Positions 35,009-61,763 of a stretch of 64,000 nt of DNA are shown here, piece after piece. Within the stretch, counting starts at the first letter, position 1. Every line of letters starts with the position of its first letter. Origin of the DNA: an uncultured Tenacibaculum sp. (lineage in GTDB: Bacteria > Bacteroidota > Bacteroidia > Flavobacteriales > Flavobacteriaceae). The notes under the pieces are model-generated. The model had not been told where the DNA came from. It did not search any database and worked only from the letters and a program-made list of their open reading frames with translations. Location: NCBI GenBank assembly GCA_947497895.1, contig CANMIL010000002.1:496001-560000 (forward strand). The letters are read 5' to 3'. The position numbers and the translations under genes are program-made.

Positions 35009-36040
35009 TTATTCTGATGAATCATTCATTTCATCATTTTTCGTTTGATAACGTGTCATTGCATTTCTAAACTTATAATGAATTTGATTCCTTAATTTTT
35101 CGGGTTTTAAAATTTCAATAGAGTCGGCATAACCTAAAAGTAATCGTTCTAATTCAAAGTTGATTTTCACAAAAATGTTGAAAATGGCACCATCATCGGT
35201 TTGTTTTATTAGTCTTTGAGACCTATGAAAAGGTTTCGTTATTATGTATGGAGTCATCTTTTTATCAGCCCAGAACTGTATGCGTTGAGGTCGTGAGTTC
35301 GGGACAGTTGCACCAACAACGTCCTTATAGTAATTATCTCCATCAATATTTAGATCCTTGAACACAGTATTTTCTTCGTCTACAATTTTAGCTATTCTAT
35401 CTAGAGCTAATGTGATATGACTTCTTTTATGCAAACCCAATACAAACCATCTATTATTGTATTCCTTTAAAAGCTGAGGGTGAATTACCTTATCATTAGG
35501 TTCTTTAGCTTTAAAAGATTGGTAAGTGATTCGGATAGCCATTTTATTTTTTATTGCCTCATAAATAGGATCGATAAACTCTAAACCTTTTAAATTTTCA
35601 TTTTTATCTAAATGAATAATAGCTCGTTTTGTATCCTGAGACGCGTATACTGAATCTTCCAAACGTTGTAAAACACCGTCCATTTCCTTGAATAGAGAAA
35701 AATCTTTGAACTGCCTTAAAACAGCAATAGCTTCGTTCATTACTTTTACATCAGTTTCGGTAACAGGAATGTTTTTGATACTATAGTTCTCCTCAGAATA
35801 GCGATAAAATTTACGTTCATAAACTTCAATAGGAGCATTGTAGCCTAATTTATCACTTCGCATGTGTTGAATGTCAAGTTGTACCGTACGTTTACTAACA
35901 TATACATCTTTTCCTTCATATTCGTACAAAGCATCAGAACAAGCATCAATTAAATCATCTAAAGTCCATCGACGCATGGTATTTCGTAAACATTGATCAA
36001 TGGTTTTATAACGAATAAGAGCGTTTTTATTTGAGGCCAT
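35009..36040 (-). CDS. WYL-domain transcriptional regulator
   Basis: 343 residues: N-terminal winged-helix region (RRWTLDDLIDACSDALYEYEGKDVYVSKRTVQLDIQ), then a WYL domain (about 130-250: IRITYQSFKA, VIHPQLLKEYNNRWFVLGLHK) and a WCX-type C-terminus. WYL proteins sense ligands, often nucleic acids or nucleotides, and regulate stress or defence genes. Two bases separate it from the CAP-domain gene upstream, so they are probably co-transcribed. Target unknown. Confidence 0.9.
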   Translation of the reverse strand: MASNKNALIRYKTIDQCLRNTMRRWTLDDLIDACSDALYEYEGKDVYVSKRTVQLDIQHMRSDKLGYNAPIEVYERKFYRYSEENYSIKNIPVTETDVKVMNEAIAVLRQFKDFSLFKEMDGVLQRLEDSVYASQDTKRAIIHLDKNENLKGLEFIDPIYEAIKNKMAIRITYQSFKAKEPNDKVIHPQLLKEYNNRWFVLGLHKRSHITLALDRIAKIVDEENTVFKDLNIDGDNYYKDVVGATVPNSRPQRIQFWADKKMTPYIITKPFHRSQRLIKQTDDGAIFNIFVKINFELERLLLGYADSIEILKPEKLRNQIHYKFRNAMTRYQTKNDEMNDSSE

Positions 36041-42310: not shown

Positions 42311-42360
42311 ATGCAATAAACTTTCCTGGAAAAATAAAATTAACTAAAAAAAACATTTAA

Positions 42361-42410
42361 TACGCAAAATCATTGCGTAATTACATCTAACATTTGCAAT
42401 GTGATTGTTA
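42361..42410 (+). promoter_or_regulatory. Promoter of the rtcB1 operon with palindromic operator (copy 1)
   Basis: TACGCA-AAATCAT-TGCGTA (42361-42379) is a perfect palindrome with a 7-bp spacer. Its right arm contains the TTG that would act as -33 element, and CATTTGCAATGTGATTG about 15 bp further resembles a Bacteroidota -7 region and start. Near-identical promoter segments recur at 54089 and 59661. Confidence 0.7.
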
Positions 42411-42416
42411 AAAATC

Positions 42417-44336
<1,920 letters not shown>

Positions 44337-49693: not shown

Positions 49694-50380
49694 TTGAAAC
49701 CACAAAACTTAAAGTCTGAAAGACTTAAAGAAGTACGTCGTATTCTAAAAAGACAACGTGAGATTTACAAAGAGTTAAGAAATCTTGGATATCGAAAACT
49801 AGAAAAGCCTATTCGTCATGGATGGTTTAAAGAAATTGTAATTACCCAAAATGTAGAACGCTACAAAAATCGCGTAGCTATTGAAGAGCTTTTTAATAAA
49901 GTAGAAAGAGCTTATTGGGGAAGAACAAAAGAATTAGCCGAAAGAAAATGGGTTAACAGAGTATCAAAGCATTTGATACATAAAGATTTTCCAACACTAA
50001 GTAAAAAACAGTTTAATAAACTAAGTGAGCCAGCGAAGGCTATGTGTACTTCATTCTATTATCGAAATGAAGCTAAAAAACTAAAGCTAAGATTTTATAT
50101 AAGAATTCCGAAAGGTGCTTATAGAATCAAGTTTACAAGAGCTTATGTTACGCATTCAAAAAGAATTGACCCGAATTTATTAAGTGAGGACAGCTTTTTA
50201 GAGAGTAAACTTTTAAGAAGTGGATATTATGAAATTATTCGGAAAATCTACAATTGGAAGTATTACGATGAAACTGAAGTTAAGAGAAAACGAAGAAAAG
50301 TAAAATCTCTATTGAAAGCTTTAAAACAGCATTCGATAGAGAAACTGATAAAAGAAGAAATATCATGGGAAAGAAGTTAA
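49694..50380 (+). CDS. Highly basic hypothetical protein paired with RtcB2
   Basis: 228 residues beginning at TTG (49694). No ATG is available before a stop at 49652, and the next Met is far inside. It is dominated by Lys/Arg (LKEVRRILKRQREIYKELRN; KRKRRKVKSLLKALKQHS), which suggests RNA or ribosome binding. Its last 16 bases overlap the RtcB2 gene. I do not recognise a family. The position next to RtcB and release factor H suggests a ribosome-damage partner. Confidence 0.7.
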   Translation: MKPQNLKSERLKEVRRILKRQREIYKELRNLGYRKLEKPIRHGWFKEIVITQNVERYKNRVAIEELFNKVERAYWGRTKELAERKWVNRVSKHLIHKDFPTLSKKQFNKLSEPAKAMCTSFYYRNEAKKLKLRFYIRIPKGAYRIKFTRAYVTHSKRIDPNLLSEDSFLESKLLRSGYYEIIRKIYNWKYYDETEVKRKRRKVKSLLKALKQHSIEKLIKEEISWERS

Positions 50381-51756
50381 AAGGAAAAGACCTAATCAAA
50401 TTAGGATTTCCACAGAACAATAGTATAAATATTGCTTTAGGGCAAATACATAGATATAGAAAAAAAGAAAAGAAAGATCGCATTTTAGAAGAAGCAAAGG
50501 AGGTATTGTTGAATCCTGAAAAGTTTCAAGGAAATGCTATTTGGGGAAAAGTTGTTGAAGGATTGGTGAAACCTGTTGAGGTCCAAATGCACAAATTAAG
50601 AAATACACGTGCTCCATTCAGTATTTACGGAGAAAATGAAATTGATGAACAGGCGAAGTATCAACTGTATGATGCGTTAAAATTACCAATAGCAAAAGCA
50701 GGAGCATTAATGCCAGATGCGCACTCTGGATATGGATTACCTATTGGAGGTGTTTTAGCTACTGAAAATGCAGTGATTCCTTACGGAGTTGGATTGGATA
50801 TTGGATGTCGAATGAGTTTGAGTATTTATCCGATGAAGGCAAGTTATTTACAAGGAAAACAGCATCAACTGGAAAACATCTTGAAGGAACATACCAAATT
50901 TGGAATGTATGAAACCCATCGTCAAAAGCATGATCATGAGATTTTCGAAAGGGAGGAATTTAACGAAATCCCTTTGTTGAAAAAGTTAAAAATGAAGGCC
51001 TATAGTCAATTGGGAACATCGGGAAGTGGTAATCACTTTGTAGAGTTTGGAGTTGTTGATATAACAGATGTAAATAATGAATTTAATGTACCAGTCGGAC
51101 GGTACGTCGGATTATTAACCCACAGTGGAAGTAGAGCCTTAGGAGCTAACATAGCAAAGCATTACAGTTATTTGGCTAGTAAGCAATGTCCACTTCCAAA
51201 GAATGTACAGCACTTGGCTTGGTTGGATTTAAATACGCATGATGGGCAAGAATATTGGCTAGCCATGAATTTGGCTGGAGATTATGCAAAGGCATGTCAT
51301 GATAATATTCATAAAAGAATAGGCAAACTATTAGGAAGTAAATCAATTGCGACCATTGAAAATCATCACAATTTCGCTTGGAAAGAAACCATTAATGGCG
51401 AAGAGCAGATTGTGCATCGCAAGGGAGCAACTCCAGCAGGAAAAGGAGTCTTAGGAATTATTCCAGGATCTATGGTAGCACCGGGTTTTATTGTTAGAGG
51501 ACTGGGAAATGAAGATAGTTTGTTTTCGGCATCGCATGGAGCAGGAAGAAAGCATTCTCGAAGAAAGTGTAAAGAGAAGTTTACAAAAAGTGATATCAAG
51601 CATCAGTTGCAAATGAACGGAGTAACACTTATTGGTGGAGGAGTAGATGAAGCACCAATGGCTTATAAAAACATTAAAAAAGTAATGGCCAACCAACAAG
51701 AGTTAGTAGAAGTATTAGGAACCTTTACTCCGAAAATTGTCCGAATGGATCGTTAG
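50365..51756 (+). CDS. rtcB: RNA ligase RtcB, second copy (RtcB2-type, PrfH-linked)
   Basis: 463 residues. Canonical motifs: GVGLDIGCRMSLS (Cys/Asp metal ligands), LGTSGSGNHFVEFG, LLTHSGSRALGANI, and SASHGAGRKHSRR (guanylylated His). Only distantly similar to the copy at 42487. It is followed by a nucleotidyltransferase and prfH, the arrangement known for RtcB2-PrfH modules that release stalled ribosomes and re-ligate 16S rRNA cut in the decoding centre. Function here inferred from that context. Confidence 0.95.
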   Translation: MGKKLKGKDLIKLGFPQNNSINIALGQIHRYRKKEKKDRILEEAKEVLLNPEKFQGNAIWGKVVEGLVKPVEVQMHKLRNTRAPFSIYGENEIDEQAKYQLYDALKLPIAKAGALMPDAHSGYGLPIGGVLATENAVIPYGVGLDIGCRMSLSIYPMKASYLQGKQHQLENILKEHTKFGMYETHRQKHDHEIFEREEFNEIPLLKKLKMKAYSQLGTSGSGNHFVEFGVVDITDVNNEFNVPVGRYVGLLTHSGSRALGANIAKHYSYLASKQCPLPKNVQHLAWLDLNTHDGQEYWLAMNLAGDYAKACHDNIHKRIGKLLGSKSIATIENHHNFAWKETINGEEQIVHRKGATPAGKGVLGIIPGSMVAPGFIVRGLGNEDSLFSASHGAGRKHSRRKCKEKFTKSDIKHQLQMNGVTLIGGGVDEAPMAYKNIKKVMANQQELVEVLGTFTPKIVRMDR

Positions 51757-52714: not shown

Positions 52715-53407
52715 ATGCAAACAAAAATTATACAAATCACAGCAGCGAAAGGTCCTGCCGAATGCGCTTGGGTAGTCGCGAAAGTGTTAAAGATATTTTT
52801 AAAAGAAATACAAAGTAAAAACATAACATATGAAATCATTCAAAAAGAGAATGGTGTCGAAAATGGAACCGTGCAATCGGTTGTTATACAGTTAAAAGGC
52901 AAAGATTTTAATCAATATGTAAAAAGCTGGTTAGGCACCATCCAATGGATAGGGGTTTCTCAATTCCGAAAACATCATAAGCGAAAGAATTGGTTTATTG
53001 GTTGTTTTGAATTATCTGGAATACAAAGTGAATCCTTTGCTTATACAGATATTGAATTTCAAGCGATTCGAAGTTCTGGACCTGGAGGACAACATGTAAA
53101 TAAAGTAAGCTCTGCAATACGAGCAAAGCATAAACCTACAGGAGTTCAGGTACTAGTTTCGGATAGTCGTTCGCAACATCAAAACAAAAAAATAGCTGTT
53201 GAGCGATTAAAAGCCAAAGTGAATGAATGTTATTCTGAAAAACTAAAAGAAAGTGATAAACAGCAATGGGGAAATCATTTGACTTTGGAAAGAGGAAACC
53301 CCGTAAAGGTTTTTATTGGAACAGATTTTAAAAAACAAAAAGAATCAAAAAAGTATAGTTCGAAACGAAATCAATTAAAGAATGATTTACGAAGAGAACT
53401 ACAGTAA
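52715..53407 (+). CDS. prfH: Peptide chain release factor H
   Basis: 230 residues, the small release-factor homologue. The catalytic loop is in SSGPGGQHVNKVSSAIRAKH (GGQ), with GVQVLVSDSRSQHQNKKIA after it. It lacks the codon-recognition domain of RF1/RF2. PrfH with RtcB2 recognises ribosomes cut in the decoding region of 16S rRNA and frees the peptide so the ligase can repair. It is the third gene of the rtcB2 unit, 20 bp after the nucleotidyltransferase. Confidence 0.93.
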   Translation: MQTKIIQITAAKGPAECAWVVAKVLKIFLKEIQSKNITYEIIQKENGVENGTVQSVVIQLKGKDFNQYVKSWLGTIQWIGVSQFRKHHKRKNWFIGCFELSGIQSESFAYTDIEFQAIRSSGPGGQHVNKVSSAIRAKHKPTGVQVLVSDSRSQHQNKKIAVERLKAKVNECYSEKLKESDKQQWGNHLTLERGNPVKVFIGTDFKKQKESKKYSSKRNQLKNDLRRELQ

Positions 53408-53414
53408 TCGGAAA

Positions 53415-53501
53415 GTCATTTCGATTGAAAAGAGAAATCTAAGAAGAATTTATAATTCTAAATGAAAAAGGTTTCTGTTAGTTAAGTTTCGTTGAAATGA
53501 C
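53415..53501. repeat. Palindromic intergenic repeat, family A (second copy)
   Basis: GTCATTTCGATTGAAAAGAG at the left, GTTTCGTTGAAATGAC at the right; ends match the repeat at 51804. Confidence 0.7.
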
Positions 53502-53550
53502 TTTTAAATATCTCGATAAAAAGAGTTTAAACGTATAAAAGAAAAGAACA

Positions 53551-54078
53551 ATGGCAACATTAGTAAACAATTATATTTTCAAGGCATTGGATGCATATCC
53601 ATATGATTTAGAAGAAACAGTGGAAGCATTAAACTATGCATTGTCTTATGACGATAAGAATAGCACGGCTTTATTACTTTCAGGACGAATTCAGGCAGAA
53701 ATACTTAAAGACTATGAAAAAGCGAAAAGTATTTATCAAGAGGCATTGGCAGAAAATGTGAATGCAATTGAAATTTATCCACATTACATACATACGTTAT
53801 TGTGTAATGAAGATTTGGAAGAAGCCAAACGTTTAATTGATTTTGCATTAACAGTAAAAGGATCTGATAAGGCTGTTTTATATGTAGCCAAAGCAAATCT
53901 ATTTGAGCAAAAGAAAAATTACAAGAAAGCTCTGGTAATCTTGAAAAAGGCCAGAATACATACCTATAATAATGATTATTTGTATTGTATTGAAAGAGAG
54001 GAAGAACGTATTAAGGGGAAGATTCCGAAAAAGAAAAAAGAAAAGTCAAAAAAGTGTAAAAAGAAAAAAAAGAAGTAA
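53551..54078 (+). CDS. TPR protein with lysine-rich tail
   Basis: 175 residues. Three or so TPR units (EETVEALNYALSYDDKNSTA; ILKDYEKAKSIYQEALAENV; NLFEQKKNYKKALVILKKAR) and a tail of almost pure Lys (about 158-175). The tail suggests RNA or ribosome contact; TPRs suggest a scaffold for repair proteins. Last gene of the rtcB2 unit. Confidence 0.82.
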   Translation: MATLVNNYIFKALDAYPYDLEETVEALNYALSYDDKNSTALLLSGRIQAEILKDYEKAKSIYQEALAENVNAIEIYPHYIHTLLCNEDLEEAKRLIDFALTVKGSDKAVLYVAKANLFEQKKNYKKALVILKKARIHTYNNDYLYCIEREEERIKGKIPKKKKEKSKKCKKKKKK

Positions 54079-54088
54079 ATATTTTAAG

Positions 54089-54140
54089 TTGCGCAAAAAC
54101 ATTGCGTAATAGTATAAAATATTTGCATTGTAATTGAAAA
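54089..54140 (+). promoter_or_regulatory. Promoter of the module-RNA operon with operator (copy 2)
   Basis: TTGCGCA-AAAACAT-TGCGTAA (54089-54109), then AAAATATTTGCATTGTAATTG. The operator, -7 region and start region match the promoter at 59661 almost base for base and the rtcB1 promoter closely. The transcript would begin near 54135. An early hairpin (GCCTCA 54146-54151 with TGAGGC 54180-54185) lies before the first tRNA. Confidence 0.7.
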
Positions 54141-54203
54141 AGAAGGCCTCATCATAACAAAGATTGTGGTGAGGCACTTAAAAAAGTTCATTGAAATTAT
54201 AAA

Positions 54204-54318
54204 AGTTCGGTAGCTCAGTGGGTAGAGCAACAGACAACACTATTGGCTATGAAAAAGCAGCAATAGTTCCTATGAAAATTAAAACTGTGTGTCGCAGGTT
54301 CGATTCCTGCCCGAACTT
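54204..54318 (+). tRNA. tRNA-like RNA T1 with a permuted module in the anticodon arm
   Basis: Acceptor AGTTCGG / CCGAACT (7 bp), D stem GCTC/GAGC, T arm GCAGG-TTCGATT-CCTGC. The anticodon arm starts ACAG ... CTGT but encloses about 50 nt instead of 9, including the module ACTATT-G-GCT-ATGAAAA-AGC-AGC-AATAGT-TCCTAT (54239-54273). No anticodon can be assigned without knowing the excision sites. Either the insert is removed and the ends are joined, or the RNA is a permanent tRNA mimic. Confidence 0.8.
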
Positions 54319-54320
54319 CT

Positions 54321-54381
54321 AAACCAATAAAGAAAGTTCCTATAACCATTAGCTTTTAACTAAAATACTTTCCATTGGTTT
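54321..54381 (+). ncRNA. Module RNA Y1 (hairpin displaying a Lys-type anticodon arm)
   Basis: Outer stem AAACCAAT / ATTGGTTT, internal loop AAA / C, inner stem GAAAGT / ACTTTC, then TCCTATAA. Inside lies TTAG-CTTTTAA-CTAA, whose 7-nt loop is identical to the anticodon loop of both tRNA-Lys(UUU) genes in the array. First of four free module hairpins. Confidence 0.75.
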
Positions 54382-54386
54382 AACCA

Positions 54387-54506
54387 GACTCAGTAGCTCA
54401 AATGGATAGAGCGCCGTTATCTACTATTCGCTATGAAAAGGCAACAATAGTTCCTAGAAACAGATTTCCAATCCGGAGGTTACAGGTTCAAGTCCTGTCT
54501 GAGTCG
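54387..54506 (+). tRNA. tRNA-like RNA T2 with a permuted module in the anticodon arm
   Basis: Acceptor GACTCAG / CTGAGTC, D stem GCTC/GAGC, T arm ACAGG-TTCAAGT-CCTGT. Anticodon arm CCG ... CGG, interrupted by module ACTATT-C-GCT-ATGAAAA-GGC-AAC-AATAGT-TCCTA (54423-54456), with an extra ATCT/AGAT pairing outside it. If the insert left between CCG and GATTTCCAATCCGG, the loop TTTCCAA with anticodon UCC would result. This is inference. Confidence 0.8.
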
Positions 54507-54517
54507 CAAAAAAAATA

Positions 54518-54570
54518 CTGACAAAGAAAGTTCCTATAATTCACCATTCACAGAAATTACTTTCCGTCAG
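54518..54570 (+). ncRNA. Module RNA Y2
   Basis: Outer stem CTGAC / GTCAG, internal loop AAA / C, inner stem GAAAGT / ACTTTC, then TCCTATAA and a small AATTC / GAAATT hairpin. The inner part is identical to Y1 while the outer stem differs on both strands, i.e. covariation. Confidence 0.75.
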
Positions 54571-54571
54571 G

Positions 54572-54638
54572 AAAAGACAAAAAGAGTTCCTATAATGGTT
54601 CGATTCCATCACAATTGGTTTATTACTCTTCGTCTTTT
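54572..54638 (+). ncRNA. Module RNA Y3 (hairpin displaying a T-arm mimic)
   Basis: Outer stem AAAAGAC / GTCTTTT, internal loop AAA / C, inner stem AAGAGT / ACTCTT, then TCCTATAA. Inside is ATGG-TTCGATT-CCAT, a T-arm with the universal TTCGATT loop but no tRNA body around it. Followed by a poly-A stretch. Confidence 0.75.
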
Positions 54639-54648
54639 AAAAAAAAAA

Positions 54649-54698
54649 AATAGGTAAAAGGTGTTCCTATATAATTAAAAAAATACGCCTCACTTATT
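54649..54698 (+). ncRNA. Module RNA Y4 in the leader of the 598-residue protein gene
   Basis: Outer stem AATAGGT / ACTTATT, internal loop AAA / C, inner stem AGGTGT / ACGCCT, then TCCTATATAAT and a plain A-rich loop. It ends 14 bp before the start codon at 54713, so a protein that binds the module could control its own translation. Confidence 0.7.
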
Positions 54699-54712
54699 AA
54701 AAAATATGAAAA

Positions 54713-56509
54713 ATGAGAACATTAAAATTGTTTAACGCGGTAATAGCAAAAGAAACAGTGTCAAATGAAAATCCTTATGTGTCAACAGATGGATTTATTA
54801 TCGAAAAGAATGCTCTATGGGCTAAAGATAATATTACAGCATACTACGAAAAAGAACGATTAACTGGAAACGACTTAAACAAAACCTTCCATAAATCATG
54901 GAATAAAATTAAGTCTAGTTCTAGAGTTGAATTGTATGTTGATCAAATTCAACATTATATATCAACTTACGGAAGCAATTTTACAAGCGAAATTTACATT
55001 CCTTCAGAAGTTGTTGATATTCCAGAAGTAAAGTTAGTATACAAAGTTATTAAAGCATATACCAAAGAAGAAATGACTCAAAAATGTATGTCATTACTTC
55101 AATCAGGAATTGCTTTAAAAGAAGAAACAATAAATGATTTATTATCAATACTAGTAGATGAATTGGAATATGAGTTCACAGGTAAAGAAAACATCAGAAA
55201 TAAAGAAGCTGTTGTTAAAATAGCGGACTTATATCATGTATATCCAGAAAATGTTGTGGAGTTTTTCCGGTACATTATCTATAGAACAACCGATTCAACG
55301 TTGCTTATTAAAAATGAAGAGTTAATTGACGCGATAAAAAATAGCTCGTATAATCCTTCAATGGCATTCAATAAATATGGATTAGAAAAGCTAGCTGAAA
55401 TTTTCAATCGATTTAAGCCTTTGTTTTTAGCTTATAAAAATAGAGCACCAAAAACAGTTAATAAAATTAGTAAGCTGTCGAAAAAGTTTCATAAGCCAAT
55501 GGTTTCAAATCCATTAAATGAAGTAACTTTTTCTTTATTAACTGAAAATGATGTTCATTGGTTAGATAACGCAACCCCTTTTGCTTTATTCAAAGCGTTG
55601 AGCGCTTGCTATATTAGAAAGAATGGACAAGATACCTTTTTGTATAGAGTAAGAAACGGAAAATCGTGGGTTAAGCCAGGTGTTAATTCGTATGCAAGTG
55701 AGATGAATTACGATTTTATCTTGAGCTATATGAAAACAAGATTCAATTTGGAGGATACTAAGATATACATACCAGCGGATGTTGAGTACGCGTTACCTAC
55801 TTCTGAGAAAATGTATGTTGGAAACATTCCAACGGGAACAAAGTTTTTCGGAGAGAAATTAGCCGTAGGTATTTATTGGAAAAACGAATGGGGAGCGAGC
55901 GACTTGGATTTATCTGGTTTAAACATTGGAGGAAAAGTTGGTTGGAATGCAAGTTACAAGCAAAATAATGGAAGTCTATTATATTCTGGTGATATCACAT
56001 CTGCACCAAAAGGAGCAGTGGAATATTTATATGCAGCCAATGGTTTAAATGCTCCGACACTTGTGAATAACAATGTATATTCAGGAAAGGTAGATTGTGA
56101 ATATAAAATTGTAATTGGTAAAGGAAGTAAGATCAATAAAAATTACATGATGGATCCTAATGAGTTATTTGCTGAAATAAAATGTAGTTCTGTACAGCAT
56201 CAAACTATTTTGGGAATGCTATTACCAGAAAGCAAACGACAAAAGGTTTTTGGTATTTCAATGAAAGGAGAAGAAAAACAATCGTTTGTATTGTTGAATT
56301 TTGGAGCTGGACATACACGAGTTTCAGGAAATTCAGAGGTGTCAAATTTAGCTACTAAAGCATTATACCAACAATGGAAAAATCCATTATCATTTAAAAT
56401 GATTGTTGAAATGCTTGGAGCAGAAATAGTAACAAATAAAGAAGAAGCTACTCATGATTTTTCTTTAGATGTACTTGAAAAAGATAGTTTTATTAAACTT
56501 TTTGAATAG
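54713..56509 (+). CDS. 598-residue protein of unknown family, candidate module-RNA binder
   Basis: N-terminal about 380 residues are alpha-helical (QKCMSLLQSGIALKEETIND; GLEKLAEIFNRFKPLFLAYK; TPFALFKALSACYIRKNG). The C-terminal about 200 residues are beta-rich (GIYWKNEWGASDLDLSGL; LLYSGDITSAPKGAVEYLY), with an acidic DLDLS stretch faintly like TerD domains. I do not recognise a family. The helical N-terminus plus separate C-terminal domain recalls the build of Ro/TROVE proteins, but the vWA metal motif of those is absent. Its position directly after six module-RNA copies, one in its leader, makes it the prime candidate partner. Confidence 0.7.
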   Translation: MRTLKLFNAVIAKETVSNENPYVSTDGFIIEKNALWAKDNITAYYEKERLTGNDLNKTFHKSWNKIKSSSRVELYVDQIQHYISTYGSNFTSEIYIPSEVVDIPEVKLVYKVIKAYTKEEMTQKCMSLLQSGIALKEETINDLLSILVDELEYEFTGKENIRNKEAVVKIADLYHVYPENVVEFFRYIIYRTTDSTLLIKNEELIDAIKNSSYNPSMAFNKYGLEKLAEIFNRFKPLFLAYKNRAPKTVNKISKLSKKFHKPMVSNPLNEVTFSLLTENDVHWLDNATPFALFKALSACYIRKNGQDTFLYRVRNGKSWVKPGVNSYASEMNYDFILSYMKTRFNLEDTKIYIPADVEYALPTSEKMYVGNIPTGTKFFGEKLAVGIYWKNEWGASDLDLSGLNIGGKVGWNASYKQNNGSLLYSGDITSAPKGAVEYLYAANGLNAPTLVNNNVYSGKVDCEYKIVIGKGSKINKNYMMDPNELFAEIKCSSVQHQTILGMLLPESKRQKVFGISMKGEEKQSFVLLNFGAGHTRVSGNSEVSNLATKALYQQWKNPLSFKMIVEMLGAEIVTNKEEATHDFSLDVLEKDSFIKLFE

Positions 56510-57071
56510 AAAAAAATTGAATAAGAATAAAATAATAATTATAGACTTAGAAGCTACTTGTTGGGATGGAAAAATTCCATCCGGACAGGTAAATGAAATC
56601 ATAGAAATTGGTATTTGTGTGTTAAATACGGAATCTGGTGAAATATCTAAAAATAAAGGAATATTAATCAAACCAGAACGATCTGAAGTAAGTCCATTTT
56701 GTACAGAACTTACTACAATAACACCCGAGCTTTTAGATAAAGAAGGGGTTTCTTTTTTAGAAGCATGTAATCAATTGAGAAATGAATACAATCCAAAGGA
56801 ATATGTATGGGCTAGTTATGGGTATTATGACTTGAATATGCTAAAGAAGCAATGTAAAATCAGGAATGTTGAGTATCCCATGTCTCAAGAACATATCAAT
56901 GTTAAAGTACTCTTTTCCGAAGTAAAAGGACTTTCTAGAAAAGTAGGAATGAATGGAGCATTACATATTCTAAATTTTGAATTAGAAGGAACTCACCATC
57001 GTGGGATAGATGATGTAAGGAATATTGCGAAAATTTTAGATTGGAGCCTCAAAAATAAAAAGGAAGCCTAA
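56469..57071 (+). CDS. DEDDh 3'-5' exonuclease
   Basis: 200 residues if started at ATG 56469 (41-bp overlap with the previous gene); TTG at 56517 is a shorter alternative. Motifs: IIDLEATCWD (first D-E), YDLNMLKK region (second Asp), HHRGIDDVRNIAKIL (H and final Asp). The layout and the NEIIEIGICVLN strand resemble the ERI-1/KapD subgroup, which trims RNA 3' ends such as histone mRNA or rRNA. In this operon it may trim tRNA-like or module RNAs. Confidence 0.85.
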   Translation: MYLKKIVLLNFLNRKKLNKNKIIIIDLEATCWDGKIPSGQVNEIIEIGICVLNTESGEISKNKGILIKPERSEVSPFCTELTTITPELLDKEGVSFLEACNQLRNEYNPKEYVWASYGYYDLNMLKKQCKIRNVEYPMSQEHINVKVLFSEVKGLSRKVGMNGALHILNFELEGTHHRGIDDVRNIAKILDWSLKNKKEA

Positions 57072-57107
57072 CGTATGTAAATAATCAAATGAATGATAGT
57101 AATACGA

Positions 57108-57138
57108 GCGTCCTAATTGTTTAGGACGCTTTTTTTAT
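57108..57138 (+). terminator. Terminator of the module-RNA / exonuclease operon
   Basis: AGCGTCCTAA / TTAGGACGCT and a T-run. The following 57139-57467 has no gene; it holds only AT-rich sequence and a promoter-like CATATTTGCATCG at about 57421. Confidence 0.92.
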
Positions 57139-57467
57139 AGCAAAATGATGGCCATATAATGAATCTCGGCGATTGTTCAAAAGATATAACTCGTTGGTAT
57201 ACGTACATCGAGATAGTTAAATAAAATAGAAAAATGTTAGTATAGGTTAATTAGAAATAAAACAATAAAAACTGAAAGCAATTGAGAGACAGACTTTTGT
57301 AAATAGGAACTAAATCCGTGAGATATCGGACAGGGGGGGTATTGCCTAATATTCAAGCTAATTAACTGATAATCAATAAAATAAATTAAAGTTTTTCTTG
57401 TGTAATTAAAAAATACGTTTCATATTTGCATCGTCAAAAAGAAACAAAGAATTATTAAAATAGTAAA

Positions 57468-57602
57468 ATGATGAAATCGTATAAACAACATAGTATAGCA
57501 TATCATTTAGAATTTCGTTCGCCGAAAGAGGAGCTACTTTTCTGTGGAGATTGTACGCAATTCATTAATAAAAAGGAGATAGATAATGAGAATATAAGTT
57601 AA
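57468..57602 (+). CDS. Putative 44-residue leader ORF before the tRNA array (CGxC motif)
   Basis: Encodes MMKSYKQHSIAYHLEFRSPK, then EELLFCGDCTQ and a charged tail. Promoter-like CATATTTGCATCG lies about 45 bp upstream and a strong terminator 24 bp downstream, before the tRNA array. The LxxCGxC motif echoes the mini-ORF at 49121. It may be a leader peptide of an attenuator or an independent small protein. Confidence 0.5.
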   Translation: MMKSYKQHSIAYHLEFRSPKEELLFCGDCTQFINKKEIDNENIS

Positions 57603-57625
57603 TATATATTCTTATGAAAGATACA

Positions 57626-57655
57626 AAGCATCTCCTTACAAGAGATGCTTTTTTT
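57626..57655 (+). terminator. Terminator between the 44-residue ORF and the tRNA array
   Basis: AAGCATCTC / GAGATGCTT with loop CTTACAA and a T-run, 90 bp before tRNA-Cys. Confidence 0.92.
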
Positions 57656-57745
57656 ATGCTATGAGTTAAGAGCATTTTAGGAAGATTGCTAACTCACTTG
57701 ATTTAAATTGTAATTGTAAGAGATGATTCTTTTACGAACAAAAAG

Positions 57746-57818
57746 GACAAGGTGGCTGAATGGTTAAGGCAGCGGACTGCAACTCCGTTTTTTATGAGTT
57801 CGATCCTCATCCTTGTCT
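57746..57818 (+). tRNA. tRNA-Cys (GCA)
   Basis: Acceptor GACAAGG / CCTTGTC with discriminator T, anticodon arm CGGA-CTGCAAC-TCCG (GCA), T arm ATGAG-TTCGATC-CTCAT. The U73 discriminator fits cysteine. Confidence 0.88.
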
Positions 57819-57869
57819 CAATAATCATTATTCAATTATCAATGAACATTGATAACTGATAATTGAAAT

Positions 57870-57941
57870 GCTCCGTTGGTCAAATGGCTAAGACGTCACA
57901 CTTTCTATGTGAAATTAAGAGTTCGATTCTCTTACGGAGTA
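57870..57941 (+). tRNA. tRNA-Glu (UUC)
   Basis: Acceptor GCTCCGT / ACGGAGT (first pair G-U), anticodon arm TCACA-CTTTCTA-TGTGA (TTC), T arm AAGAG-TTCGATT-CTCTT. Folds normally. Confidence 0.85.
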
Positions 57942-57946
57942 CAAAC

Positions 57947-58019
57947 TGATTCGTAGCTCAATTGGTAGAGCAAGGCGCTTTTAACGTCGAGGTTGTGGGT
58001 TCAAGTCCCATCGGGTCAA
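57947..58019 (+). tRNA. tRNA-Lys (UUU), copy 1
   Basis: Acceptor TGATTCG / CGGGTCA (two G-U), D stem GCTC/GAGC, anticodon arm GGCG-CTTTTAA-CGTC (TTT), T arm GTGGG-TTCAAGT-CCCAT. Confidence 0.85.
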
Positions 58020-58026
58020 CAAGCAA

Positions 58027-58163
58027 GGAAGTGTTGAGCAAATGGTTGGCTCGCCAGACTGAAATGAATTTATGAATTCAACGAAACCTATTTGTAAAAG
58101 CGATTTTATTGAGTTAAAATCTGGTCTTTTCGAAGCATGTAGGTTGGAGTTCTACCACTTCCA
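58027..58163 (+). tRNA. Type II tRNA with a 54-nt insert in the anticodon loop
   Basis: Acceptor GGAAGTG / CACTTCC, D stem GAGC/GCTC, anticodon stem CCAGA (58054-58058) / TCTGG (58120-58124), variable arm with CTT...AAG, T stem GTAGG / TCTAC. The anticodon loop is 61 nt (58059-58119) rather than 7. Removing 54 nt gives CTGAAAA (GAA) or CTTAAAA (UAA), depending on the cut. The insert can form AATTCAA / TTGAGTT. A long variable arm fits Leu, Ser or Tyr. Confidence 0.8.
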
Positions 58164-58169
58164 CAATAT

Positions 58170-58293
58170 ACATCTATGGTGTAACGGATAGCACAAGAGA
58201 TTTAGCTCACGTATTTATTCATTATACTGTTAGGGGTTCGTGAATGCATGCATTTCGACCCTCTAGGTCTAAGTTCGATTCTTAGTAGGTGTA
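58170..58293 (+). tRNA. tRNA-like gene with a long insert in the anticodon arm
   Basis: Acceptor ACATCTA / TAGGTGT, D stem GTG/CAC, T arm CTAAG-TTCGATT-CTTAG, anticodon stem AGAG / CTCT enclosing about 62 nt (58200-58260) in place of a 7-9 nt loop. The insert contains TCACG (58207) / CGTGA (58239). The amino-acid identity cannot be assigned. Confidence 0.75.
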
Positions 58294-58366
58294 CAAGATC
58301 AATGATCAGTGAACAATGGTCAATAAACAACGAGTACTGATAATTGATCATTGTAAAATTGAAAAA

Positions 58367-58438
58367 GGTTCATTGGGGTAATGGTTATCCTTCCCGACTG
58401 TCTCTCGGGAGATACGAGTTCGATTCTCGTATGAACCG
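58367..58438 (+). tRNA. tRNA-Asp (GUC)
   Basis: Acceptor GGTTCAT / ATGAACC with discriminator G, anticodon arm CCCGA-CTGTCTC-TCGGG (GTC), T arm ACGAG-TTCGATT-CTCGT. Folds normally. Confidence 0.9.
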
Positions 58439-58500
58439 CTAATATATAATCAATAAATAATTATTAACGACAACTGATAATTGCAAAGTTGATTATAAAA

Positions 58501-58626
58501 CTGGGAATATAACGATTGGTTGTTTACCTGCTTTGGATGCAGGAGGTTGTAGGTTCGAAATACGAAGTATTCATGAACACCGAAAAGGAAATAAAAAAGA
58601 ACAGTGAACTAATCCTGCTTCCCAGA
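58501..58626 (+). tRNA. tRNA-Pro (UGG) with a 53-nt insert in the T loop
   Basis: Acceptor CTGGGAA / TTCCCAG, anticodon arm CCTGC-TTTGGAT-GCAGG (TGG, intact), T stem GTAGG (58549-58553) / CCTGC (58614-58618). The T loop is 60 nt (58554-58613) instead of 7: it begins TTCGA and ends AT, so loss of 53 nt restores TTCGAAT exactly. The insert starts with a perfect AATAC-GAA-GTATT hairpin. Confidence 0.85.
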
Positions 58627-58716
58627 CTAAAACTAGAAAGGAGTGTGTTTAAAAGACTTGGGATAATATAAATCGCATGGTTGTAAAAAGAATTGTACTG
58701 TTCTGAGTCTTTAAAT

Positions 58717-58789
58717 TGAGGTATAACTCAGCTGGTAGAGTACCGTGCTTTTAACACGGGAGTCTTGGGTTCGAATCCCAATGCCTCAA
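58717..58789 (+). tRNA. tRNA-Lys (UUU), copy 2
   Basis: Acceptor TGAGGTA / TGCCTCA, anticodon arm CCGTG-CTTTTAA-CACGG (TTT), T arm TTGGG-TTCGAAT-CCCAA. Folds normally. The second Lys(UUU) gene in one array. Confidence 0.9.
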
Positions 58790-58794
58790 CAATT

Positions 58795-58868
58795 GCAGGA
58801 ATGGCGGAAATGGTATACGCGTCTGATTTAGAATCAGAATCTTGAGAGTTCGAGTCTCTCTTCCTGTA
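58795..58868 (+). tRNA. tRNA-Leu-like (UAG) with a short variable loop
   Basis: Acceptor GCAGGAA / TTCCTGT, anticodon arm TCTGA-TTTAGAA-TCAGA (TAG), variable loop of only 5 nt (ATCTT), T arm GAGAG-TTCGAGT-CTCTC. Bacterial tRNA-Leu normally has a long variable arm, so identity elements are atypical. Confidence 0.8.
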
Positions 58869-58926
58869 CAATATCAATAAATAATTATCAGTGATCACTG
58901 AACAATGATCATTGAACAATTGAAAT

Positions 58927-58999
58927 GGTGGCTTTAGTTTATTTGGTAAAACGTCTCGTTGTGGTTGAGAAGAACAGGGTTCGAATCCCGAAGTCACCC
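58927..58999 (+). tRNA. tRNA-His (GUG)
   Basis: Acceptor GGTGGCT / AGTCACC with discriminator C, anticodon arm TCTCG-TTGTGGT-TGAGA (GTG), T loop TTCGAAT. The outer part of the T stem has two mismatches, so it may be degenerate. It ends 10 bp before the next start codon. Confidence 0.78.
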
Positions 59000-59009
59000 A
59001 AAAAAGTAA

Positions 59010-59504
59010 ATGAAAAAAGTAGAAATTGTGGAACAAAAATGGAGAAATTTTAGTGGAAAAGTATTCGAAGGTTCTATTGTTGAGGTGTTAGAAAAAGCCA
59101 TCTCTAAAGAACAAAAGGAAGGATATCGTTTAAAAGTTTGTGTAGGTTCTGATTCTCAGGCTTACAAATCGTATGTAGAGTATGCAACAGCAATTGTTGT
59201 TTTAAGAGAGGGAAAAGGAGGTTTTATGTTTATCAGAAATGATAAAGGACCAAAAAAGGTATCTCTTAAAGAACGTATGCTAAAAGAAGTAACGATGTCT
59301 GTGGAAGTAGCGTATGCAATATGTGATTTACTTGATGGCTATAATGTAGGATTGGAAGTACATGCGGATATTAACACAGATCCTAAGTTTCAATCGAATG
59401 TGGCTTTAAAAGATGCTATGGGATACATTCTAGGAATGGGATTTGAATTTAAAGCAAAGCCACATGCATTCGCAAGTTCTTCTTGTGCCGATAAGGTTGT
59501 TTAA
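59010..59504 (+). CDS. YkuK-family RNase H-fold protein
   Basis: 164 residues: VCVGSDSQAYKSYVEYAT (G-S-D-S-Q), EVHADINTDPKFQSNVALKD (His/Asp cluster), HAFASSSCADKVV at the C-terminus, all typical of YkuK/DUF458 proteins, a predicted ribonuclease H-like family. The gene starts 10 bp after tRNA-His, so it is probably co-transcribed with the array and may act on those RNAs. Activity not shown for the family as far as I know. Confidence 0.85.
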   Translation: MKKVEIVEQKWRNFSGKVFEGSIVEVLEKAISKEQKEGYRLKVCVGSDSQAYKSYVEYATAIVVLREGKGGFMFIRNDKGPKKVSLKERMLKEVTMSVEVAYAICDLLDGYNVGLEVHADINTDPKFQSNVALKDAMGYILGMGFEFKAKPHAFASSSCADKVV

Positions 59505-59507
59505 TGT

Positions 59508-59560
59508 CAGTTCGAGTGATTTTTATGAAGTGGAACGGATTAAAAATTGTATCGAGAACT
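59508..59560. repeat. Intergenic repeat, family B (second copy)
   Basis: CAGTTCGAGTGATTTTTATG ... TTGTATCGAGAACT with inverted ends, matching the repeat at 51952. Confidence 0.65.
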
Positions 59561-59660
59561 AGTTAATAATTCGAAGTTTAAAATCTTCTTGATACAAAAT
59601 TATATTGTTTTATAACGCATAATTACACTTGAACTGATATAAAAAATAAAGAATTTATAG

Positions 59661-59712
59661 TTGCGCAAAATGACTGCGTAATAGTATGAGATATTTGCAA
59701 TGTAATTGAAAA
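59661..59712 (+). promoter_or_regulatory. Promoter of the permuted-tRNA unit with operator (copy 3)
   Basis: TTGCGCA-AAATGAC-TGCGTAA (59661-59681), then GAGATATTTGCAATGTAATTG. Same operator, spacing and start region as at 54089, and a closely similar one at 42361. The transcript would begin near 59708. Confidence 0.7.
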
Positions 59713-59924
59713 AGAACGCCGTTAAAAGTGGGAGAATTGCAAAGGAAAAACAATTTAAAAGTAAAAGAAAAAGTCATCATTCATAATGATGTTAAAATAT
59801 CAAGCGAGTCTTGTTGCGTGTTTCTGTATAGCACCATTGTATAAAACCTTGCAGTAATGTATTAGTGTTTTATGTGCAACTTGACTTGAAGGTTTTGATT
59901 GTTAGCCAAAAAACAGTCACAAGT
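59708..59924 (+). ncRNA. Structured leader of the permuted-tRNA transcript
   Basis: No ORF. Inverted repeats by eye: CATCATT / AATGATG (59775-59791), GTTGC (59813) / GCAAC (59876-59880) flanked by further GTC/GAC pairs, and ATAAAAC (59841) / GTTTTAT (59867-59873) nested within. It is joined directly to the 3' half of the first permuted tRNA. Confidence 0.5.
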
Positions 59925-60013
59925 TCTATGTGTCGTGGGTTCGAATCCCATCTTCCCCGCAAAAGTAAATAAGAAAAAAGGGGAAGTAGCTCAGTTGGTT
60001 AGAGCAATAGATT
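59925..60013 (+). tRNA. Permuted tRNA P1 (3' half before 5' half)
   Basis: 3' half: TCTAT (59925), variable GTGTC, T arm GTGGG-TTCGAAT-CCCAT, acceptor strand CTTCCCC (59952-59958). A 21-nt linker follows. 5' half: acceptor strand GGGGAAG (59980-59986), D arm GCTC/GAGC, anticodon strand ATAGA (60007-60011). CTTCCCC pairs fully with GGGGAAG and ATAGA with TCTAT, so a complete cloverleaf forms only in permuted order, with the open ends in the anticodon loop. Anticodon unknown until the join is known. Confidence 0.78.
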
Positions 60014-60018
60014 AGAGT

Positions 60019-60090
60019 TCGTGGGTTCGAATCCCACTCCTGAGAAATCAGGATGGCAGAGTGGTCGAATGCGAAGGACTGAAAATCCTT
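60019..60090 (+). tRNA. Permuted tRNA P2 (acceptor closed by GAAA)
   Basis: 3' half: T arm GTGGG-TTCGAAT-CCCAC then TCCTGA. 5' half: TCAGGA, D arm GCA...TGC of tRNA-Ser type, anticodon arm AAGGA-CTGAAAA-TCCTT (GAA). TCCTGA and TCAGGA pair through the four-base linker GAAA (60044-60047). The open ends fall in the variable region. With so short a linker the acceptor end may stay closed, making a non-chargeable mimic. Confidence 0.7.
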
Positions 60091-60096
60091 TAACTC

Positions 60097-60122
60097 ACAG
60101 ACCTTTCACGTCTGTATTTTTT
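60097..60122 (+). terminator. Terminator-like hairpin between P2 and P3
   Basis: ACAGAC-CTTTCAC-GTCTGT followed by ATTTTTT. It could end part of the transcripts, or define the 3' end of P2. Confidence 0.55.
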
Positions 60123-60206
60123 GCACAGGTTCGAATCCTGTCACAGCCACCAAAACTAGGCTGTGTAGCTCAGTTAGGTAGAGCACTACGCTCATAACGT
60201 AGGTTT
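60123..60206 (+). tRNA. Permuted tRNA P3, Met-type (CAU), with encoded CCA
   Basis: 3' half: T arm ACAGG-TTCGAAT-CCTGT, acceptor strand CACAGCC, discriminator A and encoded CCA (60142-60152). Linker AAACTA. 5' half: GGCTGTG (60159-60165), D arm GCTC/GAGC, anticodon arm CTACG-CTCATAA-CGTAG (CAT). CACAGCC and GGCTGTG pair over all 7 bp. No T arm or matching acceptor strand is seen downstream. Open ends in the variable loop. Confidence 0.82.
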
Positions 60207-60668
60207 ATTTTTGAAAAGCGCATCATCTTTTAAAACTGATGGTAAAAGTAATGGGTGTTACATGAGTTTTTTAATCACAAGATGATACCAAGAGTTTACT
60301 CTTTGTTTTCGTTAGAATGATTAAAAAACACTTGTCAGAATACCTTGAAATAGTAAACTGTTTGAATGAAATACGTTTGATGTTTGTAAATCAATTATTG
60401 TTCAGGAAGGAACGATGATCCATTTGATAAACAATTTCGATATTACTTCAAATACTTAGTATTTCCGTATGCTGGTAAGCATGGACACTCAATGCTTTTA
60501 TAATAAAAGAGATTAAAAAATTCAATTTAAAATTGATAAAGGAGAAGTATAACTAAAATTAAAACAAATGAAACCGACATGTTTAAAATAATTATTAAGC
60601 ACATAGAGGAATGATTATTTTAAATATCAAAGGTTACATCTGACTAATAAAACAATAAATATAAACAG
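60207..60668 (+). ncRNA. Gene-free, inverted-repeat-rich stretch before the slipin gene
   Basis: No convincing ORF. Inverted repeats: ATCATCTT (60222) / AAGATGAT (60279), TTTTTTAATCA (60267) / TGATTAAAAAA (60318), AGTTTACT (60293) / AGTAAACT (60352). They interleave, so alternative folds or a pseudoknot are possible. It is a probable continuation of the permuted-tRNA transcript and leader of the slipin gene. Confidence 0.4.
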
Positions 60669-61763
60669 ATGAAAAGAGTAAGAATTAACCAAGGATATGT
60701 TGGATTGGTGTTCAAAAATGGTGATTATCTTAAGGTAATTACACAAGGTGCGTATTGGTTAGGGTTTAATCATGAAGTAAAAGTGTATGATTTAACTAGA
60801 GATTTTTACACTCCAATAGCTTTAGAGATTTTACTAGAAGATGAATACTTGGCAACACTGATAGAAGTGGTTGAGGTAAAAGATGGCCAATTGGCTTTTG
60901 TTTATGAAAACAATAACTTTAAAAGAGTTTTGTACTCAGGTAGGTATGTTTTCTGGAAAGGTTTAGTGAACAGGAAGATTGAGTTATTTGATACTTCAGA
61001 AATTGAAATGCCAAAGAACATGGACAAGACTTTGTTTAACAATTTTGAGGTAAATAAAAATATTAGAGTTTTTGAAGTAGCAGCTTATGAGAAAGCTGTA
61101 TTGCTTATCAATGATGTTTATGAGAAAACTTTAACGGGTGGTGTTTACAGATACTGGAGAAATGACACCACTATTAAGTTAACAAAAATTGATATGCGTC
61201 AGTTACAATTGGAGATTTCAGGTCAGGAATTGTTAACAAAAGACAAAGCAAACATTAGAATTAACTTCTATACTCAATATAAGGTTGTTGATGTTGAAAA
61301 AGCGTTATTAGCGAATAAAGATTATGAAAAGCAGTTATATATTGCTATGCAATTAATTTTAAGAGCTTATGTTGGAGGATTCACTTTAGATGAGCTTTTA
61401 GAGAAGAAAGAAGATATTGTGACCTCAGTATTTAATGAAGTTCAAGAGAAGGCAACTGCTTTAGGTGTTAAAGTATTAAACTGTGGAATTAGAGATGTTA
61501 TTTTAACTGGTGAAATGAAAGAGATTATGAATCAAGTTTTAGTAGCTCAGAAAAAAGCTCAGGCTAATATTATTACCCGAAGAGAAGAAACAGCTTCAAC
61601 AAGAAGCTTATTAAATACTGCCAAATTAATGGAAAACAACGAAATGTTGTTCAAATTAAAGGAGATGGAATATGTGGAGAAAATTGCTGATAAAATTGGT
61701 GAAATTACGGTATCAGGAAATGGAAACGTAATCAAACAATTAAAGGAGATTTTTACGCATTAA
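60669..61763 (+). CDS. Slipin / SPFH (band 7) protein
   Basis: 364 residues. INQGYVGLVFKNGDYLKVIT near the start, an SPFH domain in the second half (DMRQLQLEISGQELLTKDKA, NIRINFYTQYKVVDVEKALL, QLILRAYVGGFTLDELLEKK) and a coiled-coil tail (AQKKAQANIITRREETASTR). No clear N-terminal membrane helix. Slipins are recurrent neighbours of rtcB and RNA-repair genes in bacteria, which fits here. The molecular role in repair is unknown. Confidence 0.9.
   Translation: MKRVRINQGYVGLVFKNGDYLKVITQGAYWLGFNHEVKVYDLTRDFYTPIALEILLEDEYLATLIEVVEVKDGQLAFVYENNNFKRVLYSGRYVFWKGLVNRKIELFDTSEIEMPKNMDKTLFNNFEVNKNIRVFEVAAYEKAVLLINDVYEKTLTGGVYRYWRNDTTIKLTKIDMRQLQLEISGQELLTKDKANIRINFYTQYKVVDVEKALLANKDYEKQLYIAMQLILRAYVGGFTLDELLEKKEDIVTSVFNEVQEKATALGVKVLNCGIRDVILTGEMKEIMNQVLVAQKKAQANIITRREETASTRSLLNTAKLMENNEMLFKLKEMEYVEKIADKIGEITVSGNGNVIKQLKEIFTH

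Follow-up and report, generated by a model that had tools for sequence, protein, structure and literature searches.

Circularly permuted tRNA-like modules in a predicted noncoding RNA upstream of a slipin gene in Tenacibaculum

In an uncultured Tenacibaculum sp., three tRNA-like modules (P1, P2 and P3) follow one another upstream of a slipin gene, and in each of them the T arm and the 3' acceptor strand precede the 5' acceptor strand and the D arm. They lie in a window of 64,000 nucleotides, by which the whole stretch of DNA analysed is meant, and their permuted order is kept in related loci of many genera. From the sequence, P1-P3 are predicted to be modules of one structured noncoding RNA, which is regarded here, with moderate confidence, as a non-chargeable tRNA mimic that would serve the neighbouring slipin/RtcB RNA-repair system. 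The feature exceeds the segment initially annotated (59925..60206), a conserved 5' domain, conserved downstream elements and a promoter having been added to it.

Permuted modules and their conservation

The acceptor strands pair in permuted order at 7/7 positions in P1, 6/6 in P2 and 7/7 in P3, each lying where the initial annotation had placed it, and in normal order, for which no acceptor pairing had been claimed, the two possible acceptors pair at 2/7 and 2/7 only. Taking into account that random 7-mers of 59700-60300 pair at 7/7 with a frequency of 0.0019 and at 6/7 with a frequency of 0.018, the circular permutation of the halves is real and beyond chance.

Two types of module can be distinguished. 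In open modules, those of the P1 type (29 aligned, alignment A2), the flanks form the anticodon stem and the ends exit at the position of the anticodon loop. Closed modules, those of the P2 and P3 type (37 aligned, alignment A3), have a complete anticodon arm, and their ends lie in the variable region. Thus, P1 (59922..60014, + strand) consists of an anticodon-stem strand (59925-59929), the T arm (59935-59951), the 3' acceptor CTTCCCC (59952-59958), a loop, the 5' acceptor GGGGAAG (59980-59986), the D arm (59989-60005) and a second anticodon-stem strand (60007-60011); the two anticodon strands, TCTAT and ATAGA, do pair, as first described. It scores 92.4 bits with model R1, of which this locus is a member, and its minimum-energy fold is exactly the permuted cloverleaf (z -3.0).

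The same holds for the fold of P3 (60119..60206, +; z -2.8), which scores 83.2 bits with model R2, the locus being again a member. It comprises the T arm (60125-60141), the 3' acceptor CACAGCC (60142-60148), the 5' acceptor GGCTGTG (60159-60165), the D arm (60168-60184) and the anticodon arm (60186-60202); both the encoded ACCA after the acceptor (60149-60152) and the intact CAU arm (CTACG-CTCATAA-CGTAG) reported for it are present. P2 (60015..60094, +) contains the T arm (60021-60037), the acceptor strands TCCTGA (60038-60043) and TCAGGA (60048-60053) around a GAAA loop, the D arm (60056-60072) and also a whole anticodon arm (AAGGA-CTGAAAA-TCCTT, 60074-60090). Its minimum-energy fold differs from the cloverleaf (z -2.0), so the case for P2 rests on comparison with relatives (L140 and L141); it scores 56.3 bits with R2, a model in whose membership this locus is not included. 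The sequences intervening between the acceptor strands measure 21 nt in P1, 4 nt in P2 and 10 nt in P3.

ARAGORN, run on the window, finds seven ordinary tRNAs upstream (57746-58999) and lists none of P1, P2 and P3. The Rfam tRNA model (cut-off 29) accepts two normal-order hybrids, 59980-60042 (30.8 bits) and 60051-60149 (38.3 bits), which pass because the model tolerates unpaired acceptors. Such RNAs can therefore be missed by a tRNA gene finder.

A scanner that looks for a T arm with a 3' acceptor, followed by a 5' acceptor with a D arm, was run on genomes of the same family and found the same layout in others of them, between the tRNA array and the slipin gene. With an alignment of ten slipin sequences (A1), the best 80 of 535 matching stretches encoding a relative were then taken as loci, mostly from Flavobacteriaceae (Tenacibaculum, Winogradskyella, Aquimarina, Maribacter, Zobellia, Kordia and others), with Cytophagales, Chitinophaga and Bacteroidales also included. 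Conservation in relatives had been put forward earlier as a test of the permuted pairing, and the pairing was indeed kept in 64/80 of these slipin loci (at least one pairing at 5/7 or better). T-to-D neighbours of any kind occur within 1 kb upstream of slipin in 70/80 loci; pairing at 5/7 was absent from 16/80, and L089 and L101 have less than 500 nt of upstream sequence.

When the D arm was picked by its own stem, regardless of the acceptor, 106 of the 128 T-to-D neighbours lying up to 1000 nt upstream of slipin paired in permuted order at 5/7 or better (57 at 7/7, 33 at 6/7 and 16 at 5/7), and 22 paired at 4/7 or less, compared with 19/168 at 5/7 or better among controls more than 1400 nt upstream, in a region of ordinary tandem tRNAs. 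Since the members of A2 and A3 had been pre-selected for at least six acceptor pairs and the anticodon stem, it is this comparison that constitutes the unbiased test. Within those alignments, 98.0% of the cells are paired in the open modules and 97.2% in the closed ones, and 17/21 and 18/21 pairs, respectively, have changed on both sides. Cells changed on both sides number 138 (open) and 206 (closed) versus 37.5 and 52.9 in shuffles, none of 500 shuffles of either alignment reached the observed covariation score, and paired cells drop to 33-51% in slid-alignment controls. All seven acceptor pairs have changed on both sides in some sequence.

All three modules are also present in the same-genus loci L140 and L141. 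The P1 acceptor is CATAAAC/GTTTATG in both, and that of P2 shows a compensatory change within the genus, TATTTCC/GGGAATA in L140 versus TACTTCC/GGAGGTA in L141. The anticodon of P3 is CAU in the window versus GUU in both relatives. An extra permuted closed module, outside the main RNA, is observed about 1.2 kb upstream of slipin in L050 (780-864) and L051 (4787-4871).

The larger predicted RNA and its operator

The 5' domain (59786..59940, +) is composed of a long-range stem, a hairpin GTGTTTC..GTATAGCAC and a further hairpin, and scores 158.8 bits with its own model, R3, of which the locus is a member; a possible GGTT/AGCC pseudoknot was seen by eye in the further hairpin. Of the 37 pairs predicted in an alignment of 37 loci (A6), 20 have changed in a compensatory way in one sequence or more. 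R3 matches 13 of 395 Bacteroidota genomes at E 1e-4, the slipin profile matching 20/395 at E 1e-30, and all 13 matches lie 427-729 nt upstream of the slipin of that genome, on the same strand. R3 was not found in 7/20 slipin genomes, which belong to other families of the class. A single match above noise is present in the genome under study.

Downstream of P3, two conserved elements, AATACCTTGAAATAG (60339-60353) and TATTTCCGTATGCTGG (60460-60475), were recognised by eye in a 14-locus alignment, and their span (60339..60475, +) is possibly the 3' part of the predicted RNA. Judging by score and position among the best 150 matches of each search, at least 76/80 loci have an R1 match in the 1.2 kb upstream of slipin, and R1 followed by R2 occurs upstream of slipin in at least 62/80. 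The score alone is no proof, given that R1 and R2 also recognise ordinary tandem tRNAs, those of this same genome scoring up to 69.2 bits (R1) and 57.6 bits (R2). The upstream sequence of L089 and L101 is too short for a call with either model. At the slipin loci L110 and L116 no module was found at all, so slipin can occur without the permuted RNA.

In Rfam searches, the RNA gives nothing but tRNA, YrlA and weak fragments below the cut-off (tmRNA, 16.2 and 11.2 bits; beta_tmRNA, 17.9; plastid UTR, 23.1), and no GOLLD or ROOL match, these being large Rfam RNAs, was obtained in 53380-60700 at E up to 5. At the gathering threshold, six relatives yield tRNA and one tRNA-Sec only.

A predicted promoter/operator precedes the RNA (59661..59708, +); in it, a TATTTG box comes after the palindrome TGCGCA-N7-TGCGTA (59662-59680). 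The window consensus, TRCGCA-N7-TGCGTA and then a TTTG box, stands ahead of three units: the second RtcB operon (42361; copy at 42360-42407), a unit of tRNA-like genes, a 598-aa protein and an exonuclease (54090), and the permuted RNA (59662). When these three copies were themselves combined into a pattern, a search with it at up to three mismatches found only them in the 5.01-Mb genome, and its reversed control finds 0. The palindrome, with at most one mismatch, lies within 1.7 kb upstream of slipin in 50/77 loci versus 1.6 expected from shuffles, the three of the 80 loci with less than 1 kb upstream having been left out. In L110 and L116, which have no RNA module, the operator lies about 170 nt from slipin. 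A WYL-domain regulator encoded about 6 kb before the cluster (35009-36040, minus strand) is a candidate for the shared operator.

Gene neighbourhood and possible functions

The slipin (SPFH/Band_7) gene (60669..61763, +) lies downstream of P1-P3, and in the model of its product a stomatin-like SPFH domain is accompanied at the N-terminus by three beta repeats (2-46, 65-112 and 132-179) that have in common a pattern around G.Y.FW. Upstream of the RNA, ARAGORN places the array of seven tRNA genes (Cys, Glu, Lys, Asp, Lys, Leu, His; 57746..58999, +). The two RtcB genes that had been linked to the modules were both recovered by Pfam (PF01139): an RtcB RNA ligase (50365..51756, +; E 5.4e-80) and a second RtcB (42487..43869, +; E 1.8e-37). 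A release factor (52715..53407, +; PF00472, E 3.5e-24) is presumably PrfH-like, as its RtcB neighbour suggests. Further Pfam calls nearby are two RlaP nucleotidyltransferases, a PNKP-type phosphatase, an exonuclease and an RNase H-like protein. Among the 80 slipin loci, whose length ranges from 3 to 13 kb, relatives were found for RtcB (45), PrfH (15) and a TPR protein (39).

A comparable grouping has been described in Anabaena, where TrcR keeps a 26-tRNA operon, rtcB and a slipin gene repressed until translation stress relieves the repression, and where loss of the repressor raises rtcB 77-fold and the slipin gene 42-fold (PMC10272220). In both cases a tRNA array, rtcB and a slipin gene come together, there under one regulator activated by translation stress; unlike the present locus, that regulon is cyanobacterial and depends on a ribbon-helix-helix repressor, and the part of the account drawn on here does not mention a permuted RNA (PMC10272220).

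Other tRNA-like genes occur in the region. Two of them, in normal order (54204-54318 and 54387-54506), carry in place of the anticodon loop a hairpin insert, with GCTATGAAAA..GC..AATAGTTCCTA common to both. Further elements follow the two genes, and GTTCCTA appears six times in 54266-54663; L140 and L141 keep this layout, each having six copies of GTTCCTA in the corresponding stretch. They directly precede the gene of the 598-aa protein (54713-56509), which has 2219 relatives, many in Chryseobacterium, and for which no Pfam, NCBIfam or confident fold match was obtained; the tRNA-like genes may be its Y-RNA-like partners. Two more in normal order, 58024-58165 (seen by eye) and 58170-58293 (found also by the scanner), have long anticodon-loop inserts, and elements of L038 (8963-9087) and L042 (199-327 and 402-517) resemble them. 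Upstream of the permuted RNA in L031, L037, L038, L041 and L141 there is a conserved tRNA-like element that starts with GCCTCTTTAGC, or one base off, and ends near AAGAGGT, a long conserved insert replacing its anticodon arm; this start sequence is absent from the window.

The reading favoured here, that of a non-chargeable tRNA mimic, would work as follows. From the promoter type common to the second RtcB operon and the tRNA-like unit, the RNA would be turned on under RNA or translation damage. Its predicted fold combines the conserved 5' domain with a single open module (P1) and with closed modules, of which there are one or two (P2, P3). The capped acceptor stems would display an L-shaped tRNA body without a free 3' end, which would keep it from being charged and from taking part in translation. 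Proteins that recognise tRNA would bind to the exposed elbow and anticodon arms; the most likely of them is the slipin assembly, acting as a scaffold, whose clients could be anticodon nucleases or enzymes that repair damaged tRNA. With the permuted RNA, the function of noncoding RNAs in bacterial RNA-repair systems becomes testable.

The constant position of the RNA also fits a cis-acting leader of slipin, in which the modules would sense damaged tRNA, anticodon nuclease activity or the capacity for tRNA processing and adjust slipin expression, a rather unlikely reading. In 13/13 cases the 5' domain shares its strand with slipin and directly precedes it, and in Citrobacter and E. coli the slipin gene has a leader of about 300 nt after a GG-N10-GC site, as in sigma-54 promoters. 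Moreover, a terminator-like hairpin with a T run separates P2 from P3 (60097..60122, stem 60097-60115, +). However, several hundred nucleotides with two or three modules are large for a leader, and terminator-like sites were scanned in the window alone (2 found against 0.4 expected, the second being the P3 anticodon arm), those of the relatives having been judged by eye; the hairpin may be a variable arm instead of a terminator.

A distinctly unlikely, more ambitious proposal is that of a bacterial vault-like particle, in which slipin would form a ring or cage around the permuted RNA as tRNA mimic and capture anticodon nucleases or broken tRNAs for delivery to RtcB. The three N-terminal repeats of slipin, set ahead of the SPFH shoulder, would in this case correspond to the repeats of the Major Vault Protein, which they resemble. 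If true, a bacterial counterpart of the eukaryotic vault-RNA partnership would have been built on scrambled tRNAs.

The initial annotation stated that no such array was known in bacteria, yet the permuted tRNA topology had already been described, since bacterial Y RNA has a tRNA-like domain that can be superposed on tRNA in circularly permuted form (PMC11472068). Moreover, YrlA is encoded with RtcB in rsr-yrlBA-rtcBA operons (PMC7790460), so the YrlA of Salmonella and other bacteria resembles the permuted RNA in both its permuted tRNA-like domain and its RtcB linkage (PMC11472068, PMC7790460). Even so, it seems improbable that the permuted RNA belongs to the YrlA family of Y RNAs and has a Ro60 protein as its partner. 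P1 does have the topology of YrlA, as a permuted module opening at the anticodon stem, and the Rfam YrlA model (RF02553) gives 37.5 bits at P1 and 36.8 at P3. These scores are, however, below the cut-off of 69, and only the tRNA-like part is aligned (model positions 23-88 and 30-81 of 114), the Ro60-binding stem being left unmatched. YrlA matches at E 0.01 occur in 92/149 genomes of the same family and also in 9/14 control genomes, and several of the matching loci are ordinary tandem tRNA genes; as these reach similar scores, the YrlA score was not used as evidence. The Ro60 protein itself (TROVE, PF05731) was not found in this genome at E 0.1, in a search whose positive control matched in Deinobacterium, although a diverged partner may be present. 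The acceptor-like stem of YrlA is closed by a loop. Unlike YrlA, which opens at the anticodon stem, P2 and P3 have their opening in the variable region, and the permuted RNA further differs in its succession of modules, of which two possess the entire anticodon arm, and in its link to slipin.

Burroughs and Aravind are reported to have described in 2016 a 'novel tRNA-like molecule' linked to SPFH/Band-7 genes in RNA-repair systems. This corresponds to what is found at this locus, a tRNA-like noncoding RNA beside the Band-7 gene of an RNA-repair system, and the two RNAs are probably of the same family. The novelty of the permuted RNA is thus limited by YrlA and by this molecule. A tRNA mimicry by permutation known from Y RNA recurs here in tandem and without a detectable Ro60, in modules that include complete anticodon arms; it extends across Bacteroidota and has a promoter type in common with RtcB and the tRNA-like unit.

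It was also suggested initially that P1-P3 could be circularly permuted genes maturing into tRNAs through an endonuclease and a ligase, a proposal that was not supported and that is considered very unlikely. Permuted tRNA genes have been reported in red and green algae and in one archaeon, where splicing at BHB motifs gives circular intermediates and RNase P and tRNase Z are proposed to cut within the intervening sequence (PMC3978253). As in those genes, a 3' half, an intervening sequence and a 5' half follow one another and the acceptors pair across the interval, but the loops of the present modules are mostly of 3-6 nt and P1 alone would yield no anticodon loop. The exact permuted order, the linked RtcB genes and P3, with its ACCA and intact CAU arm, speak for such genes, and an ACCA is found in four modules overall (P3 and a single module in each of L063, L037 and L044, the last two outside the 29 and 37 aligned). 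Against them, the acceptor loop has 3-6 nt in 14/29 open and 27/37 closed modules (41/66), a CCA follows the acceptor in 0/29 open and 2/37 closed ones (P3 and L063), open modules of the P1 type lack their own anticodon loop, and the P3 anticodon differs within the genus, GUU in L140 and L141 in place of the CAU of the window. Short loops, rare CCA and a P1 without anticodon thus indicate that P1-P3 are probably not tRNA genes. The anticodons of the 37 closed modules are scattered (UUU 14, CAU 5, UAG 5, UCG 4 and eight other kinds), while U33 is kept in 35/37 and a purine at 37 in 37/37, which would suit a tRNA-like shape and not decoding.

Finally, tandem tRNA duplicates do put a 3' half before the matching 5' half, as is probably the case for the scanner matches in L022, L027 and L030, and an ordinary tRNA array adjoins, but that P1-P3 are debris of such duplicates with their outer halves lost is refuted by the covariation, with compensatory changes accompanying a permuted pairing kept across genera; the conserved 5' domain and promoter also speak against it.

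Related loci beyond the Bacteroidota

Relatives of the slipin are also found on plasmid records of Citrobacter, E. coli, Subdoligranulum, Photobacterium and Burkholderia, and that of the Citrobacter plasmid adjoins rtcR and a nucleotidyltransferase. Upstream of the slipin gene, Subdoligranulum has a T arm together with a capped acceptor of 7 bp and a D-like stem, and E. coli and Citrobacter have a T arm and a capped hairpin of 7 or 6 bp; in the T stem of one E. coli allele, a U-A pair has changed to C-G. The best model scores are weak (22.0 bits in E. coli and 31.7 bits in Subdoligranulum), and the E. coli and Citrobacter leaders fold no better than shuffles (z -0.6 and 0.1); for these reasons the forms outside Bacteroidota are considered tentative, including the reduced one, made of a T arm and a capped acceptor hairpin, tentatively assigned to E. 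coli and Citrobacter. At least 80% of the E. coli leader-slipin stretch is present in 1623 of 5426 complete E. coli genomes. In E. coli TUM12355 (NZ_CP134376.1, 4371242-4371456), the match covers the initial 215 nt of the leader query, and the slipin gene is missing under it.

The slipin leader of Photobacterium (L163, 7629-7770) contains a tRNA-like module in normal order, with the acceptor TTTTAAG/CTTAAAA paired at 7/7 and scores of 40.0 bits (R1) and 41.5 bits (R2). Permutation is therefore not universal, and the site can hold a module in either order. In Burkholderia, a tRNA match lies upstream of slipin.
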